Part shown: positions 6,489-63,268 of the stretch, piece after piece
Layout of the letters: every line of letters starts with the position of its first letter
Numbering within the stretch: the first letter of the stretch is position 1
Source of the DNA: Geitlerinema sp. PCC 7407
GTDB taxonomy: Bacteria; Cyanobacteriota; Cyanobacteriia; PCC-7407
DNA length: 64,000 bases
Direction of reading: 5' to 3'
Assembly (NCBI RefSeq): GCF_000317045.1
Contig: NC_019703.1
Location: 1,600,501 to 1,664,500, forward strand
Position numbers and translations under genes: made by a program
The notes under the pieces: model-generated
The model's database searches: none
What the model saw: only the letters and a program-made list of their open reading frames with translations
What the model was told of the DNA's origin: nothing

Positions 6489-6529
6489 CGAACACCCCCC
6501 CGCACGTTTCTTATGCGGGGGGGTGTTCG
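6489..6529. terminator. Strong bidirectional terminator hairpin
   Basis: A perfect 16-bp stem (6489-6504 with 6514-6529) encloses a 9-base loop and includes seven consecutive C:G pairs. It lies between the convergent ends of the DUF212 gene and the exported-protein gene, so it can stop transcription from both sides, although U-tracts are short. Confidence 0.8.
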
Positions 6530-14778: not shown

Positions 14779-15454
14779 GGTGGGGGGGCGATCGCTCCTG
14801 AGCCTGCTACAGCTAGCCAGCGCGGCTCTGCCAGTGGGGGCCTATAGCTATTCCGAAGGTCTAGAAAGGCTCGTGGAACAAGGCATCGTGACCGATGCAG
14901 CACAGTTGCAGGAGTGGCTGCGCCAGGAGCTACAGGTGGGAGCGATCCGGCTGGAGGCGGCCCTAATGGTGCGAGCCTATGGCGCAGCGCAGGCGACGGA
15001 CTGGGAGCGGCTGCAAGCCTGGAACCAGTGGCTGTCGGCAGTTCGCGAAACCGAGGAGCTGCGGCAGCAGAGCTGGCAAATGGGGCGATCGCTCCTGCGC
15101 TTGCTGCAAGTCTTGGCCCCGGATCTGGGCGGGGCGATCGCCCCGCTCCAGGAAACCTGCAACTTTGCCGTGGCCTTTGCGCTGGCGGCAGCCCACTGGC
15201 AAATTCCCCTAGAGGCGGCCCTCCTGGGGTACCTCCACGGTTGGTCAAGCAACCTGATCAACGCCGGGGTCAAGCTGATTCCCCTCGGCCAAACTGCCGG
15301 TCAGCGCTTACTGCTGGAGCTGCAGCCGATCCTCGAAGCCACCGTCCAGTCGGCGCTGACTTTGGAGGACGATGCGCTGGGGAACTGCGGCTGGGGGCTG
15401 GCCTTGGCCAGTATGCAGCACGAGACCCAGTACACGCGCCTGTTTCGCAGCTAG
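14759..15454 (+). CDS. ureF: Urease accessory protein UreF
   Basis: A 231-residue UreF, the helical factor that bridges UreD-bound apo-urease and UreG and couples GTP hydrolysis to nickel insertion. Diagnostic stretches are [21 protein letters not shown] near the start and [24 protein letters not shown] in the C-terminal half. Two starts are possible, ATG 14759 (overlapping ureE) and ATG 14768. The overlap implies translational coupling with ureE; ureG follows after 132 bases. Confidence 0.94.
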
Positions 15455-16291: not shown

Positions 16292-16864
16292 ATGCTCAGG
16301 AAATCTCTCACCTTCGCGGCTACGACGGCTCTGCTCGTGTCTGCCTACGGCCTTCAGGCTGACTCGGCCCAAGCCGCAACCTTTAACTTTTCCTATGCGT
16401 TTTCTTCGGGAGAAACGCTGTCGGGTCAGATCGAAGGAGATTTGGCAGATGACAAAGACAGCGTCCTCAATCTGCGCAACCTAAAGGCTGCCTACTCGGG
16501 CTTGCCAGGTACGTCTTTTTCTTTCTTGACACCCTTCAAGTTTTCTCACTTCTCCTTGTCTGGTCGGGGCCTCAATTTCCTTGGCTTCAATCTGTCTCCC
16601 AAGACGGATAGTATCAATCCCAATATGGGCTTTTCGCTCCGAGATGAGTTCTTCTTGAACAGTGCAACCCTTGGCCTGTTTCAGACGAACTCTACAACTG
16701 TTTATTACTCTAATCGAGAAAATTCAGAGGAGTTTGAGGTCTTCTCCCGCGATCGCTGGAACGCCGCAGAAGCGAAGGACGTCCCTGAGAGCAGCGCGAT
16801 CGCTGGACTGGCGCTGCTGGCGGTTGGTGGATGTCTGCTCAAGCGAAAGGCTGCTTGCAGCTAG
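16292..16864 (+). CDS. PEP-CTERM sorted exported protein
   Basis: A 190-residue secreted protein. The N-terminus is a signal peptide (KSLTFAATTALLVSAYGL, cleavage near AQAA). The C-terminus has the tripartite sorting signal read by exosortase: VPESSAIAG, then a hydrophobic helix ALLAVGGCLL, then a basic KRK end. The motif is a PES variant of Pro-Glu-Pro. The mature domain (residues 28-160) is beta-rich with many Ser, Phe and Asn, common for exosortase cargo, and I recognise no enzyme fold. No exosortase gene is in the window. Confidence 0.8.
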   Translation: MLRKSLTFAATTALLVSAYGLQADSAQAATFNFSYAFSSGETLSGQIEGDLADDKDSVLNLRNLKAAYSGLPGTSFSFLTPFKFSHFSLSGRGLNFLGFNLSPKTDSINPNMGFSLRDEFFLNSATLGLFQTNSTTVYYSNRENSEEFEVFSRDRWNAAEAKDVPESSAIAGLALLAVGGCLLKRKAACS

Positions 16865-16877
16865 ACCCACTTGATAA

Positions 16878-16924
16878 GGCGATCGCGGTCTATGGGCTGG
16901 CTTGCTGTCCCGACCGCGATCGCC
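16878..16924. terminator. HIP1-containing inverted repeat after the PEP-CTERM gene
   Basis: A perfect 13-bp inverted repeat (16878-16890 with 16912-16924), each arm containing GCGATCGC, encloses a 21-base loop just behind the stop codon at 16864. No U-tract follows, so it may act as a transcript-end stabiliser rather than an intrinsic terminator. Confidence 0.55.
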
Positions 16925-17329
16925 TCCCAAAGATACTGCTGCTAGAAAAATTTACTGTGACCTGATTAAATGATTTTTTTACTTCTAGTCGTTGACTTTT
17001 ATAAGTAAAAATCTAGATAAAATATCTTCTAATCTGCTAAACAAATGTCTAGATTTTAGATATTAGCAATATAAAATAAACTTTAAAAATCATGATTTGT
17101 TTTGCATGAAAATTCTCGAAAATGACTGAAGATTCATGCTAAATTTCCTGATTTAAATCAATTTAAACCCAATCAAGAAACGCGTGAATTTGATTGGTCG
17201 TAAAATCTGCACTTCGCCAAAAGATGAAGTCTGCGATCGCCCAGAAGACTTTAACAAAGCCGATCGAACTCTGCTCAGGCTCTCCGAGAACTGCGAAAAT
17301 AAAAGTAGATTCAAACATAAAGTCGAATA
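16925..17329. other. AT-rich intergenic stretch
   Basis: About 400 bases with much lower GC than the flanking genes and with many A/T runs (for example around 16970-17110). No gene, tRNA or clear repeat is seen. It probably holds the promoter of the lumenal pentapeptide gene at 17330. Confidence 0.5.
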
Positions 17330-20990: not shown

Positions 20991-21026
20991 AAAAAGGCAC
21001 TTCAGACTTCTGAAGTGCCTTTTTTG
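20991..21026 (+). terminator. Strong intrinsic terminator after tRNA-Pro
   Basis: A near-perfect palindrome GGCACTTCAG / CTGAAGTGCC with flanking A and T runs (TTTTTT from 21020) follows the tRNA by five bases. It should end the tRNA transcript and any read-through from the rpoZ group. Confidence 0.9.
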
Positions 21027-41086: not shown

Positions 41087-41551
41087 GGAGATTCACGCAG
41101 GCTGGCTGTGTAGGAATGGCAAAAGGCAGATGCGATTTTGATGCTTGGGCGACGCTTTGGGCCGTTGCTAAAAAGCGTCCTGCCGGGATGCTGAGCCAGG
41201 GGAACAGGGAGAAGGCCAAGATCTCTTGGGTGATGAGCGAATCTGAGGGCTGGAAACCTAGTCAAATTTTGGCATTTTGGGGCTAGGGGAGATGTGTCCT
41301 ACTATTCACTGCTCAGGATTCCCGGGTTGGGTCAGTTTGCTGCATTGGCCCTAATGGGCTCTTTGAAGCGGAGAATACCCAGACGAAACTTGCACACTGC
41401 CATTGCGAGGATGGGTTAAAGATTCTACGAATCTTTGCGGAGATAGAGGTGGATAGTTTGACATTAGCACTCTCGCCAGAAAAACTTCTCGGGCGATCGC
41501 GTCGAATTATGACCTGTGGCTAGAGGGTTTGGCCGCAATGATGAGAAAAAT
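41087..41551. other. Gap between the adenylate cyclase gene and the recN terminator
   Basis: About 465 bases hold the cyclase promoter. A TTAGCACTC half-site near 41465 has no mirrored partner. No gene, RNA or repeat is supported. Confidence 0.4.
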
Positions 41552-41579
41552 CGCGTGGGAGGCGATCGCCTCCCACGCG
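41546..41579 (-). terminator. 28-bp HIP1-centred palindromic terminator of recN
   Basis: A perfect 28-bp palindrome (41552-41579) is centred on GCGATCGC. On the minus strand, starting 34 bases after the recN stop, it is followed by ATTTTT, which makes a good intrinsic terminator. Confidence 0.85.
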
Positions 41580-41612: not shown

Positions 41613-43412
41613 TCAGCGGCGGCTGCGGGACCGGGCTTTGCTGGGCTTGCCCAAAACCGCTGCTGCGTCTGGCATTGCCTTGGCTTGCCGCAGGTCGTTG
41701 GCCTGACTGAGGAGGGAGTCGGCGAAGGCGATCGCCTCTTGGGCAGACTGACCGCCCGCTAGCTGGGCTAGCTCCTCTCGCCGCTGCTGGCTATCGAGCT
41801 GGCTTACCCGTACGACGGTGCGCACGTCTTCTTGCTCCGCTTCGGCGCTGGCGCGCGAGGGATCAATGACTTCTTTATTGACCTGAAAGTGGTGATCGGC
41901 CATGGCCGCCACGAGGGGCTGGTGGGTAACGCAAAGCACCTGATGGTGCTGGCCGAGGTGATGGAGCTTTTCGGCGATCGCCTGGGCAACGCGCCCCGAA
42001 ACCCCCACGTCGATCTCGTCGAAGATGAGGGTGCCGATGGGATCAATCTGGGAAAAACAGGCCTTGAGGGCTAGCAAAAACCGGCTCATCTCGCCGCCGG
42101 AGGCGATGTCGGCGAGGGGCTGGAGGGGCTCGCCGGGGTTGGGACTCAGGAGAAACGTGATGCGATCGGCGCCGCTGGCGCTGGGATCGCTCGGGGTGAG
42201 CCCCACCTGGAACTGCACTTTGTCCATGGCCAGGGGCTTGAGCTCGCTGATCAGGCGGCTTTCGAGGGCGATCGCCGCTTCCCGCCGCAGCTCGGTGAGG
42301 CGATCGCAGACCGTTCGTAGCTGGGCCTGATGCTTGGCGTAGGCGCTCTCGAGGGCCTCGATGGACTGGCCTTCGCCCTCCAGCTCGGCCAGCTCCGCCG
42401 AAATGCGCTCGTAGTGGGCGATCGCGTCTGCCAGGGTCGGACCGTACTTGCGGCAGAGCTGCTTTAGCTCCACGATTCGCGACTCGACTTCTTGCAGGCG
42501 TTCGGGATCGGTGTCGAGATCGTCGCCGTAGGCACTCATTTCCCGGCCCGCTTCTTCGATCTGGGCCAGCGCGCCGCTCACCAGCTCCAAAATCGGCTGA
42601 ACCTGGGGATCGTAGCGCACCATATCCTGAAGAATGGCCTCCGCCTTGCCCACCAAATCCGCCGCTGCCTCTCCCCCAGCCTCGTTTTGGTAGAGCCGCT
42701 GATACACGTCGTAACTTTGCTGCTGCAGCTCCACGCTGTGGCCCAGCCGCTGGCGCTCTTGCTCGAGCTGCTCGAGCTCGTCAGGTTCCCCAAGGCTGGC
42801 AGCGGCCAACTCCTTGGCCTGGTACTGGAAGATATCTCGCTGCTGTAGCCGCTGACTCTCGGCTTGGCGGCGCTTTTCGAGGGCTTTGAGGGCGCTCTGG
42901 GCCTGGCTAAAGGCTGCGCTGACCTGCTCTCGCTGGTGCAAGAGGCGATCGCCGCCAAAGTTGTCGAGCCATTCTCGCTGAATGGTGGCTTTGCCCAGTT
43001 GGACAGTCTGGCCCTGGGCCGTGATAGACACCAGGCGATCGCGCAACTCCTCCATCTGCTGCTTGTTTACTAGCACCCCATTCACCCGCGATCGGCTGCG
43101 CACCCCGCTACTGCTGAGCGTCATCTCCCGGCTGCACACCAGCCAGTCGTCTTCGAGACTGTCGATTTCCTGAAGCTCGAGCCAGGCGCTGAGGTCGAGA
43201 TTTAGCTTGAAGGTGGCCTCGATGACCGCGCGACCGGCACCCGTGCGAATGGCTCGCCCGGTGATCCGCCCCCCCAGCACCGCGTCAATGGAGTCCAGAA
43301 TGATGGATTTGCCCGCACCGGTTTCCCCCGTCAAAACATTGAGACCCGCACCAAAGGGAAGCTCCAGCTGGTCAATCAGGGCAAAATTTTCGATGCGCAA
43401 AGAAATTAGCAT
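41613..43412 (-). CDS. recN: DNA repair ATPase RecN
   Basis: A 599-residue SMC-like protein. Walker A is GETGAGKS (residues 29-36); the coiled-coil arms occupy about residues 160-380; the ABC signature region (LQPLADIASGGEMSRFLLALK) and Walker B (LIFDEIDVGVSG) come next. RecN gathers and tethers DNA ends in double-strand break repair by recombination. The ATG at 43412 starts the homology (MLISLRIENF); the longer frame adds a short unrelated stretch. The last 20 residues form a basic Arg/Ser tail. Confidence 0.95.
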   Translation of the reverse strand: MLISLRIENFALIDQLELPFGAGLNVLTGETGAGKSIILDSIDAVLGGRITGRAIRTGAGRAVIEATFKLNLDLSAWLELQEIDSLEDDWLVCSREMTLSSSGVRSRSRVNGVLVNKQQMEELRDRLVSITAQGQTVQLGKATIQREWLDNFGGDRLLHQREQVSAAFSQAQSALKALEKRRQAESQRLQQRDIFQYQAKELAAASLGEPDELEQLEQERQRLGHSVELQQQSYDVYQRLYQNEAGGEAAADLVGKAEAILQDMVRYDPQVQPILELVSGALAQIEEAGREMSAYGDDLDTDPERLQEVESRIVELKQLCRKYGPTLADAIAHYERISAELAELEGEGQSIEALESAYAKHQAQLRTVCDRLTELRREAAIALESRLISELKPLAMDKVQFQVGLTPSDPSASGADRITFLLSPNPGEPLQPLADIASGGEMSRFLLALKACFSQIDPIGTLIFDEIDVGVSGRVAQAIAEKLHHLGQHHQVLCVTHQPLVAAMADHHFQVNKEVIDPSRASAEAEQEDVRTVVRVSQLDSQQRREELAQLAGGQSAQEAIAFADSLLSQANDLRQAKAMPDAAAVLGKPSKARSRSRR

Positions 43413-45749: not shown

Positions 45750-45777
45750 AAAGCCAGGGAGTCTTCCCTGGCTTTTT
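45750..45777 (+). terminator. Intrinsic terminator of the ABC1/UbiB gene
   Basis: AAGCCAGGGA pairs with TCCCTGGCTT around a GTCT loop, followed by a T run, 45 bases after the stop. On the minus strand the A-flank also makes it usable in reverse for the convergent HmpF-like gene. Confidence 0.9.
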
Positions 45778-49377: not shown

Positions 49378-49414
49378 AAAAAGGGCGATCGCCCTCAAAA
49401 CGCGATCGCCCCCT
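49378..49414 (-). terminator. Terminator of prk made with two HIP1 octamers
   Basis: Two GCGATCGC copies (49385-49392 region and 49402-49409) can pair with each other, or the first can fold alone as AGGGCGATCGCCCT. On the minus strand the fold is followed by five T. It lies about 25 bases behind the prk stop. Confidence 0.75.
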
Positions 49415-49437: not shown

Positions 49438-50448
49438 TTAAGCGTTGGCAGGCGTAGCTACCTTTGCCTCCCTCGAAGTCAGGCGCTCATAGGTCGCCCG
49501 CATCTTCAGACCCGTTAGCACCTGGAACAGGCCGGTACCATTGTTCGAGCCGGGGTAGTCGCGGTGCTGAAGCAGCAGGTGAGTCATTTCACCGTAGTAC
49601 TTCGTCGAAGTGTTGCTCAGGTGATTCTCGATGTAGCTCACTTCCTCTAGGTTGTCGAACTGGCCGTCAACCTCCAGGATCGAGACCTCGTGACCGTAGT
49701 ACGAGTCCGGACCGTAGTACATCTTGATACCCGGATAGGAGCAGGTCAGCTTGCGACCGCAGGGCGTCCAGTGGATCGTCGAACCCTCGTCAAAGAGGTA
49801 GACCGGATCAAACCCTTCAACACCGTCGCGCTGGATCATCTGCACGCGGAGCACCTTCCGCTCAGTGTCATCCTTGATCAGCTGAGTCGGCAGCACGCGG
49901 ATCACGACATTAGCAAATTCCTTCTGAGGATCGATGTAGGCCGTGAAGTCCGGTTTGCGGGAGTTGATCGACGCAATCACGTCATCGTAGGTGTGGCCGC
50001 GCTCAGCCATGTCGCGCTGGATCTTCCAGGCGATCTTCACCTCGTCGCTGATGTCGAGATAGACGCTGAAGTCAAGCAGTTCACGCACCCGCGCATCATA
50101 GAGAGGATGAAGACCCTCTACCACGATGATGTGGTTCGGCTCGATCCGCTCTGGCGGATCAATCTCGCCGGTTTCGTGATTGTAGATTGGTTTATCAATC
50201 GCCTGACCGTTCTTGAGCGCTTTGATTTGCTCATACATCAGGTCAAAATTGTTTGCCTTCGGATTGAGGGCGGTCACCCCTGCTTCCTTGCGCTGCTTCC
50301 GGTCGAGACTGTGATAGTCATCCAAACAGATGACCGTGATGAAGTCCTTCCCGAACAGATCTTCCAGTCGGCGCAGGAAAGTCGACTTGCCGCATCCAGA
50401 GTCTCCGGCAACGCCAATCAGAACCACACGGTCCGGCTTACTGGTCAT
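49438..50448 (-). CDS. prk: Phosphoribulokinase
   Basis: A 336-residue PRK, the Calvin-Benson enzyme that makes ribulose 1,5-bisphosphate from ribulose 5-phosphate and ATP. The P-loop is GDSGCGKS (residues 15-22). Redox cysteines are Cys19 and Cys41 (VICLDDYHS) plus the C-terminal pair Cys230 and Cys236 (TPCGRKLTC); the same four positions control the enzyme by thioredoxin and by CP12/GAPDH complex formation in Synechococcus. ATG at 50448. It is divergent from petH, so a shared control region couples two photosynthetic genes. Confidence 0.98.
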
Positions 50449-62023: not shown

Positions 62024-62050
62024 CCAAAAAAGCAGGGCGATCGCCCTGCT
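62024..62050 (-). terminator. HIP1-centred terminator of the arsA-type gene
   Basis: A perfect 20-bp palindrome (62031-62050) with GCGATCGC in the middle; on the minus strand it is followed by five T. It lies 37 bases behind the stop of the ArsA-type gene. Confidence 0.85.
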
Positions 62051-62086: not shown

Positions 62087-63268
62087 CTAATTCATCGGCG
62101 CAAACCGAATTTTGAGATAATCCTCTTCCATCTTGGCCCCCGACGGCTGCAGCGCCGCCAAAGCCTGGGGCAGCACCAAGTTGCGGCGATGGTTGCCGAT
62201 GCGAATATTCAGCTCATCGCCCGACTTGCTCAGGTCGATTTGGCTCTTGGGAATGCCGGGGAGATAGACCTCCAAGCTGTACTGATTTTGCTCCTGCACG
62301 ACCCGCAGCGTTGTTTCCTTGTAGTAAACCTGGGCCGGGTCTTCGTCTGCGTAGAGCGTCTCCTTTAGGCGCTCCAGCGCTTCGAGGCCGCACATTTCCT
62401 CGGAGTAGAGCGGCACCTCTTTGATCGGCAGCGGCCGGAAGTTCTCGTGAATCTCGTCGCGATACTGCTTCTGGTTCTCTTTCCAGCGCTGGAAAAAGGG
62501 ATCTTGGACCTGATCGGGGATGATCCGGTTTGCGACGACTAGGTCAGTGCCCACGTTGTAGAGGCTCAGGTATGCGTGGGCGCGCAAAGACTCTTTGATC
62601 ACCATTTTCTCGGGGTTGGTGACTAGGCGCACCGAGGTTTGGGTGGGATCGGTCAGCACCTTCTCCAGGGCCTCGATCTGCTCGTAAAACTCGTAGGGCG
62701 CGTCCATCACTTCCTTGTTGGGCAGCGAGAAGCCCGCGATCGGCCGGAACAGGGGCTCAAACACCGGACGCAGGGCGACGGACATGGCCTGAAGCGGCTT
62801 GTAGAAGCGGCGCATGTACCAGCCTGCGACTTCGGGCAGGCTCAGAAGGCGCAGGGCGGTCCCGGTGGGGGCCGAGTCGATGATCAGCACGTCGTACTCG
62901 CCTTCGTCGTAGTGCCGCTTCATGCGCACCAGGCTGAAGATCTCGTCCATGCCCGGCAAGATGGCCAGCTCTTCGGCCTCCACGCCCTCGAGCCCCCGGG
63001 CCTGCAACACCTGGGTGATGTAGCGCTTGACGGCACCCCAGTTGTTTTCGAGCTCCATCAGGGCGTCGAGCTCGGCGCCCCACAGGTTGGGCTTGACGAG
63101 GCGGGGCTCGTGGGACAGCTCCATGTCAAAGCTGTCGGCGAGGGAGTGAGCTGGGTCTGTGCTCAGCACCAGGGTCTTGTAGCCCAGCTCCGCACAGCGG
63201 AGACCTGTGGCGGCTGCAACGGAGGTTTTCCCAACGCCGCCCTTGCCGGTCATCAGAATTACGCGCAT
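62087..63268 (-). CDS. ArsA/GET3-type ATPase with C-terminal HSP20-like domain
   Basis: A 393-residue ATPase. The deviant P-loop GKGGVGKT (residues 8-15), [13 protein letters not shown], and [17 protein letters not shown] mark the ArsA/GET3 family. Residues about 310-393 ([23 protein letters not shown], then [22 protein letters not shown]) form an HSP20-like beta sandwich. There is only one P-loop, unlike true ArsA with two halves, and no ars genes adjoin it. Its role may be membrane-protein or client handling as in GET3; arsenite pumping is unlikely. ATG at 63268. Confidence 0.92.

Follow-up and report, generated by a model that had tools for sequence, protein, structure and literature searches.

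A perfect 28-bp palindrome that begins 33 nt past the stop codon of recN in Geitlerinema sp. PCC 7407 is probably the hairpin of an intrinsic (Rho-independent) terminator, grown by selection from a copy of HIP1 (Highly Iterated Palindrome 1; the core here is the canonical octamer GCGATCGC) that was put to this use for its availability. The palindrome lies in a stretch of 64,000 nucleotides (positions 1,600,501 to 1,664,500 of NC_019703.1), the whole of which was analysed and is referred to here as the window. The original prediction for this DNA, that HIP1 is recruited repeatedly to seed terminators and so gains a possible function, appears half right, in that HIP1 does seed hairpins at the gene ends of this genome, and this looks like the reuse of abundant raw material. 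Transcription termination in cyanobacteria is an open problem, to which these results add a concrete, testable link between HIP1 and terminators in at least this lineage. The link involves no more than a few per cent of HIP1 sites, and termination therefore cannot account for the abundance of HIP1.

To our knowledge, HIP1 has been without an agreed role for about three decades, and we know of no role for it in DNA uptake. It has been treated as a motif with a link to DNA methyltransferases, in an article whose main text does not contain the words terminator, termination, hairpin or stem-loop (PMC4390886). According to the available part of a study of strain PCC 7002, HIP1 was always among the top matches when the sequences on either side of open reading frames were searched for motifs, and its role was left unexplained (PMC7406221). 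Cyanobacteria are described as lacking Rho in a 2026 study of termination in S. elongatus, in which 22% of transcription units look intrinsically terminated, and the accessible portion of that study mentions neither HIP1, nor GCGATCGC, nor GATC (PMC13289151). Among the matches listed from a search of the open-licence literature there was no report of HIP1 in terminators.

Materials and Methods

HIP1 copies were counted over the whole genome of 4,681,111 bp, which holds 11,975 of them against 106 for a reversed control pattern. Counts by type of intergenic gap (tandem, convergent or divergent) come from an 864-kb sample, equal to 18% of the genome and made up of the window and 40 stretches of 20 kb spread evenly over the first 3.24 Mb. 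Genes in this sample (n = 696) were called with a purpose-built codon log-odds caller in place of standard annotation, and errors of this caller are expected to blur the contrast between gap types rather than create it. HIP1 totals vary from 2,188 to 2,225 between analyses, as sites near stretch ends or without flanking called genes were left out. Throughout, k denotes the number of pairs by which a HIP1 palindrome extends beyond the octamer. Terminators were also predicted blind to HIP1, as a stem of ≥7, a loop of 3–10 and ≥5 T in 8 nt.

The same analysis was applied to 400 kb from each of four HIP1-rich genomes (G011, G023, G024 and G021) and one HIP1-poor genome, all of the same class. A covariance model of the centred hairpin, R1, was trained on 15 palindromes of the present genome and is partly biased towards it; as the training sites had been selected for their palindromic form, its pair counts are circular and were left unused. 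At R1 loci in foreign genomes, gene calls rest on codon models taken from other genomes, and the T-rich tail of R1 determined which strand was matched.

Results

The palindrome at 41552-41579 reads CGCGTGGGAG-GCGATCGC-CTCCCACGCG, with ten further pairs flanking HIP1, and is followed on the recN strand by ATTTTTCTC (Table 1). Ten of the twelve base pairs in the stem are G-C, the loop has four nucleotides and the predicted minimum free energy (MFE) of the hairpin is −27.7 kcal/mol. Downstream of recN there is thus the GC-rich stem with a short loop that characterises an intrinsic terminator, and a T-tract comes directly after the stem, as it does at the hairpins of the ArsA-type and prk genes and does not at that of the PEP-CTERM-like gene. 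A perfect, HIP1-centred 28-bp palindrome with a T-tract after recN was what the original prediction had described, and over 41546-41579 that description is exact.

Such length is exceptional among the 158 HIP1 sites of the window (2.7 expected from shuffling). Ninety-one of them are not extended at all, three are extended by five pairs or more and only the recN site by more than six; with the intragenic step rate, the window would be expected to hold 0.0004 sites as long as the recN palindrome. The third site with five pairs, at 15134, lies inside the UreF gene.

Table 1. Features of the recN hairpin and of other HIP1 hairpins in the window, with adjacent genes.
Feature	Position	Strand	Basis
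Perfect 28-bp palindrome, 12-bp stem with GATC loop; predicted recN terminator hairpin	41552..41579	-	sequence, MFE
HIP1 octamer at palindrome centre	41562..41569	.	motif search
T-tract, ATTTTT on the minus strand, directly 3′ of stem	41546..41551	-	sequence
recN	41613..43412	-	Pfam RecF/RecN/SMC N-terminal domain; start codon as chosen by gene caller
HIP1-centred 20-bp palindrome, then TTTTT; predicted terminator of ArsA-type gene	62031..62050	-	MFE −18.5 kcal/mol
ArsA-type ATPase gene	62087..63268	-	Pfam ArsA_ATPase
Predicted prk terminator hairpin, loop 9, tail TTTTTCG	49383..49411	-	MFE −25.8 kcal/mol
Phosphoribulokinase gene (prk)	49438..50448	-	Pfam PRK
Hairpin 3′ of PEP-CTERM-like gene, 14-bp stem with two HIP1 copies, 21-nt loop	16877..16925	+	
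PEP-CTERM-like gene (C-terminal VPESS, hydrophobic stretch, basic end)	16292..16864	+	translation

HIP1-centred folds had also been proposed for the ends of the ArsA-type, prk and PEP-CTERM-like genes. This stands for the ArsA-type gene, with its centred palindrome and T-tract. After prk, HIP1 instead provides the two arms of the hairpin (49385-49392 and 49402-49409), though a T-tract is present, and after the PEP-CTERM-like gene (a family name that we assume from the motif at its C-terminus) HIP1 copies are again the arms, around a long loop, with no T-run after the hairpin at 16877-16925. Strong inverted repeats without HIP1 also occur in the window, at 20991-21024, 6489-6529 and 45750-45775 (stems of 16, 16 and 11 bp); these are candidate ordinary terminators, the last of which scores as terminator-like on either strand.

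Across the sampled genome, HIP1 sites near gene ends are more often extended than intragenic ones, as the original prediction required, and this remains so when a T-run is demanded as well. Up to 80 nt past a stop codon, k ≥ 6 was reached by 12 of 175 sites against 4 of 1706 in genes (p = 4e-10), and k ≥ 6 together with ≥5 T in 8 on either side by 5/175 against 0/1706 (p = 7e-6). By type of gap, palindromes with k ≥ 5 are found at 7/59 sites in convergent gaps and 14/254 in tandem gaps, are absent from divergent gaps (0/169) and occur at 11/1706 sites in genes, where some of the 11 may be miscalled genes. Tandem and convergent gaps taken together (21/313) differ from divergent gaps (p = 2e-4) and from genes (p = 1.4e-10), and the repeated recruitment of HIP1 to gene-end hairpins accordingly holds in this genome. 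Leaving out the window gives 19/284 for tandem and convergent gaps, 0/158 for divergent gaps (p = 3e-4) and 10/1589 for genes; at k ≥ 4 the figures are 24/313 and 3/169 (p = 0.006) for tandem plus convergent and for divergent gaps, respectively. Strong predicted folds around HIP1 (40 nt, MFE ≤ −18) were seen at 11/59 convergent, 23/250 tandem, 6/250 intragenic and 2/169 divergent sites.

Long palindromes in tandem gaps show a weak T-tract asymmetry. For k ≥ 4 the downstream side has a mean of 3.06 T in 9 nt against 1.88 on the opposite side (n = 17, p = 0.018); the difference is not significant at k ≥ 5 (p = 0.056) or k ≥ 6 (p = 0.11). A slight asymmetry is also present at ordinary HIP1 sites within genes (k < 4; 1.93 vs 1.80, p = 0.003). 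In tandem or convergent gaps, a downstream side with ≥4 T in 9 nt is found at 12 of the 24 palindromes with k ≥ 4 and 10 of the 21 with k ≥ 5, and the half without a strong T-tract may be weak terminators or hairpins that protect 3′ ends.

These counts bear on an alternative that we take seriously, though it is less likely than termination: that HIP1 hairpins are mainly 3′-end stabilisers or RNA-processing boundaries in the manner of REP elements, with termination taking place further downstream and the recN T-tract incidental. The 12 of 24 long palindromes (k ≥ 4) at gene ends without a clear T-run, for example L009:6813, L019:481 and L001:10641, are consistent with such a function, as is the hairpin of the PEP-CTERM-like gene, but T-tracts lie on the correct side at recN, ArsA and prk, and the downstream excess of T in tandem gaps at k ≥ 4 likewise argues for termination. 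A search of the genome for the Rho family gave no match above the curated cut-off; the three sub-threshold matches that remain are probably related RecA-fold ATPases.

Terminators predicted blind to HIP1 were found at 32 places among 460 gene ends with room for them and at 2 of 515 mid-gene controls, a depletion inside genes such as intrinsic terminators should show. Eleven of the 32 hold HIP1 (seven at the centre, three in the arms, one off-centre) against 3.04 expected from the density of HIP1 at gene ends without a terminator, and against 60/340 among background hairpins in genes (p = 0.03). HIP1 stands at the centre in 7/32 terminators and 12/340 background gene hairpins (p = 4e-4); for HIP1 arms with loops ≤10 nt no enrichment was found (3/32 vs 26/340). 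When loops of up to 40 were admitted, two-arm HIP1-HIP1 stems of ≥10 bp, counted per HIP1 site, occurred at 22/313 tandem and convergent sites and at 26/1710 intragenic ones (p = 4e-7), the comparison with divergent gaps (4/169) reaching only p = 0.03. A compact double-HIP1 candidate terminator was seen at L011:13108-13139, 6 nt past a stop, where two HIP1 copies share one 32-nt palindrome that ends in a T-run (AAAAAGGGGCGATCGCGCGATCGCCCCTTTTT). Terminators without HIP1 are also somewhat commoner here (21/460 gene ends vs 23/913 in the four HIP1-rich genomes, p = 0.05), and this lineage may rely more on intrinsic termination generally.

HIP1 itself is not enriched at gene ends over other gaps, its density in gaps ≤600 bp being 3.98 per kb in convergent, 3.84 in tandem and 3.62 in divergent ones. 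A positional enrichment near stops (4.96 per kb within 80 nt, against 2.50 in genes and 3.36 upstream of starts) was largely gone once gap types were compared. A preference for HIP1 over all other palindromic octamers (21/313 vs 6/362, p = 0.001) was discarded too, this comparison not being matched for GC content. When the controls were restricted to other palindromic octamers with ≥6 G/C lying away from HIP1, k ≥ 5 was reached by 3/74 in tandem and convergent gaps (p = 0.59 against 21/313 for HIP1), a small control set with which a modest HIP1 preference over GC-matched octamers may be compatible. This similar rate of extension points to availability, and HIP1 makes up the bulk of GC-rich palindromic octamers in these gaps. 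Long centred palindromes in tandem or convergent gaps involve 21 of 2188 HIP1 sites (~1%), to which the 22 two-arm stems add at most 44, so that 12,000 copies cannot owe their presence to termination; the role of HIP1 in termination concerns a few per cent of copies at most and leaves the abundance of HIP1 unexplained.

Among the four HIP1-rich genomes, k ≥ 4 within 80 nt of stops gave a weak signal in G011 alone (3/64 vs 3/922 in genes, p = 0.0045), the corresponding counts being 1/21 vs 2/628 in G023, 0/31 vs 1/552 in G024 and 0/17 vs 0/448 in G021. Centred palindromes with k ≥ 5 in tandem or convergent gaps were absent from G023, G024 and G021 and numbered 1/105 in G011, or 1/272 over the four against 21/313 here (p = 3e-5). 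Two-arm stems recur in the pooled genomes (10/272 vs 25/2557 in genes, p = 0.001), the signal coming mainly from G024 (3/71 vs 0/555) and G023 (5/56 vs 16/629).

In the present genome 150 of ~22,000 candidates were scored in the R1 search, which found 10 of the 15 training sites again, so its counts are lower bounds; it gave at least 53 strand matches at 32 places (E ≤ 0.001), an indicative figure, ten of the places being training sites. Across 38 relatives it gave at most 13 matches in any one and none in 14, again as lower bounds from a model biased to this genome. Over a class-wide sample with stricter filters, R1 matched at E ≤ 0.01 in 103 of 195 genomes, this one counted, and at eight of the nine foreign best-scoring loci the matched strand has a called stop 18–97 nt before the palindrome. 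HIP1-centred gene-end hairpins are present elsewhere in the class, rare in the sampled genomes and unusually frequent here. The longest palindrome found lies around the HIP1 copy at 1521-1528 of L187 (genome G037): it is perfect over 54 bp, with 23 further pairs, and is 60 nt past a called gene end.

A dedicated role for HIP1 in termination or polymerase pausing, for which its over-representation would be partly maintained, appears improbable. In S. elongatus, ChIP of RNA polymerase shows an excess of peaks at HIP1 (41 sites, P < 1e-10), although just 41 of 7,402 HIP1 sites have one, according to the available part of the source report (PMC3219970). HIP1 terminators also exceed expectation here (11 vs 3.04), but the density of HIP1 hardly varies among the three gap types, only 21/2188 sites lie in long centred palindromes in tandem or convergent gaps, and the centred form is nearly missing there in the four HIP1-rich relatives. 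The suggestion that seeding terminators gives HIP1 a possible function is not supported for the same reasons, the near-equal gap densities, the 21/2188 sites and the 1/272 in HIP1-rich genomes, and for the similar rate at which GC-matched octamers are extended (3/74 vs 21/313).

Of the 14 intragenic HIP1 sites extended to k = 4 or beyond, 11 continue to k ≥ 5, above the expectation for a constant step rate, and this intragenic excess could possibly reflect miscalled genes or palindrome-perfecting mutation. Mutational template switching that perfects quasi-palindromes from HIP1 anywhere, without selection for termination, would produce such a run of extensions and may act alongside selection; as the whole explanation it is as doubtful as a dedicated role, since palindromes with k ≥ 5 depend on place (0/169 divergent, 11/1706 in genes, 21/313 tandem plus convergent) and a place-blind process would not produce this.

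The recN palindrome lacks orthologous conservation: among 41 other recN loci, in which the same genome may occur twice, a palindrome centred on HIP1 follows recN within 160 nt at a single one (L042). There, in a cyanobacterial metagenome-assembled genome, a 28-nt palindrome at L042:4216-4243 lies between convergent recN and putative infB genes (the latter presumably infB, as we read its translation), with arms and neighbour that differ from those here, and it looks like an independent case. It has a T-run on the infB side and is a candidate bidirectional terminator. That the palindromes are copies of a mobile or repeated element with HIP1 in its middle was already disfavoured and is highly improbable, for although several have short purine-rich arms in common (GGGG or GGGAG beside HIP1), the eight HIP1 positions are the only invariant columns among 15 aligned palindromes, which leaves no common sequence beyond the core of the kind that a REP-like family would have, and the L042 palindrome follows recN with other arms and another neighbour gene.

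Discussion

In the explanation that we favour, a HIP1 octamer would have come to lie by chance at the end of recN, and the stem would then have been lengthened outward under selection for a strong hairpin. In RNA, HIP1 would give the loop, GATC, and the two G-C pairs next to it, and a perfect palindrome could fold on either strand, which would suit convergent gene pairs. We infer both that HIP1 preceded the long stem and, from the sequences, that HIP1 hairpins terminate transcription. Extrapolation from our sample suggests that dozens more gene ends of this genome may have followed the same path. There would be two routes to such hairpins, one with a single HIP1 as centre and one with two neighbouring copies pairing as arms, which two copies can do because any two are mutual inverted repeats. 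What would favour HIP1 at gene ends is its supply, no other GC-rich palindrome being nearly as common in intergenic gaps; termination would not be its purpose.

More speculatively, and with low confidence, HIP1-built hairpins might be a sizeable class of terminator, bidirectional in many cases, in a lineage without detectable Rho; a self-complementary GC-rich octamer kept every ~400 bp would then be a stock of hairpin seeds from which intrinsic terminators arise faster than they would without HIP1. If this is true, a supply of terminators would be a side benefit of HIP1 that varies among lineages.

The nearest parallel is found in the uptake sequences of Neisseria and Haemophilus (DUS and USS), which like HIP1 are abundant short motifs, kept for another reason, that have been built into gene-end terminators. 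As described in the available part of one source, DUS and USS often occur in terminators as closely spaced inverted pairs (PMC2397512), an arrangement like that of the HIP1 arms at prk. Most copies are unpaired in both systems, and termination as a general role of uptake sequences is disputed, as many copies lie in open reading frames and ~10% form inverted repeats, according to the part of the literature source available (PMC1939737). The two differ in symmetry: DUS and USS are non-palindromic and need an inverted pair, whereas HIP1 is palindromic in itself, so that one copy can be the centre of a hairpin and any two can pair in either orientation.

HIP1 hairpins resemble canonical intrinsic terminators in their GC-rich stem, short loop, T-tract and position tens of nucleotides past the stop, and differ from them in having a perfectly palindromic centre, a GATC loop set by HIP1 and, in about half of cases, no strong T-tract. 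They also resemble REP elements in E. coli, which form GC-rich palindromic hairpins downstream of genes and can protect RNA 3′ ends, but REP elements are a repeat family with a longer common sequence, whereas HIP1 hairpins share the octamer alone.
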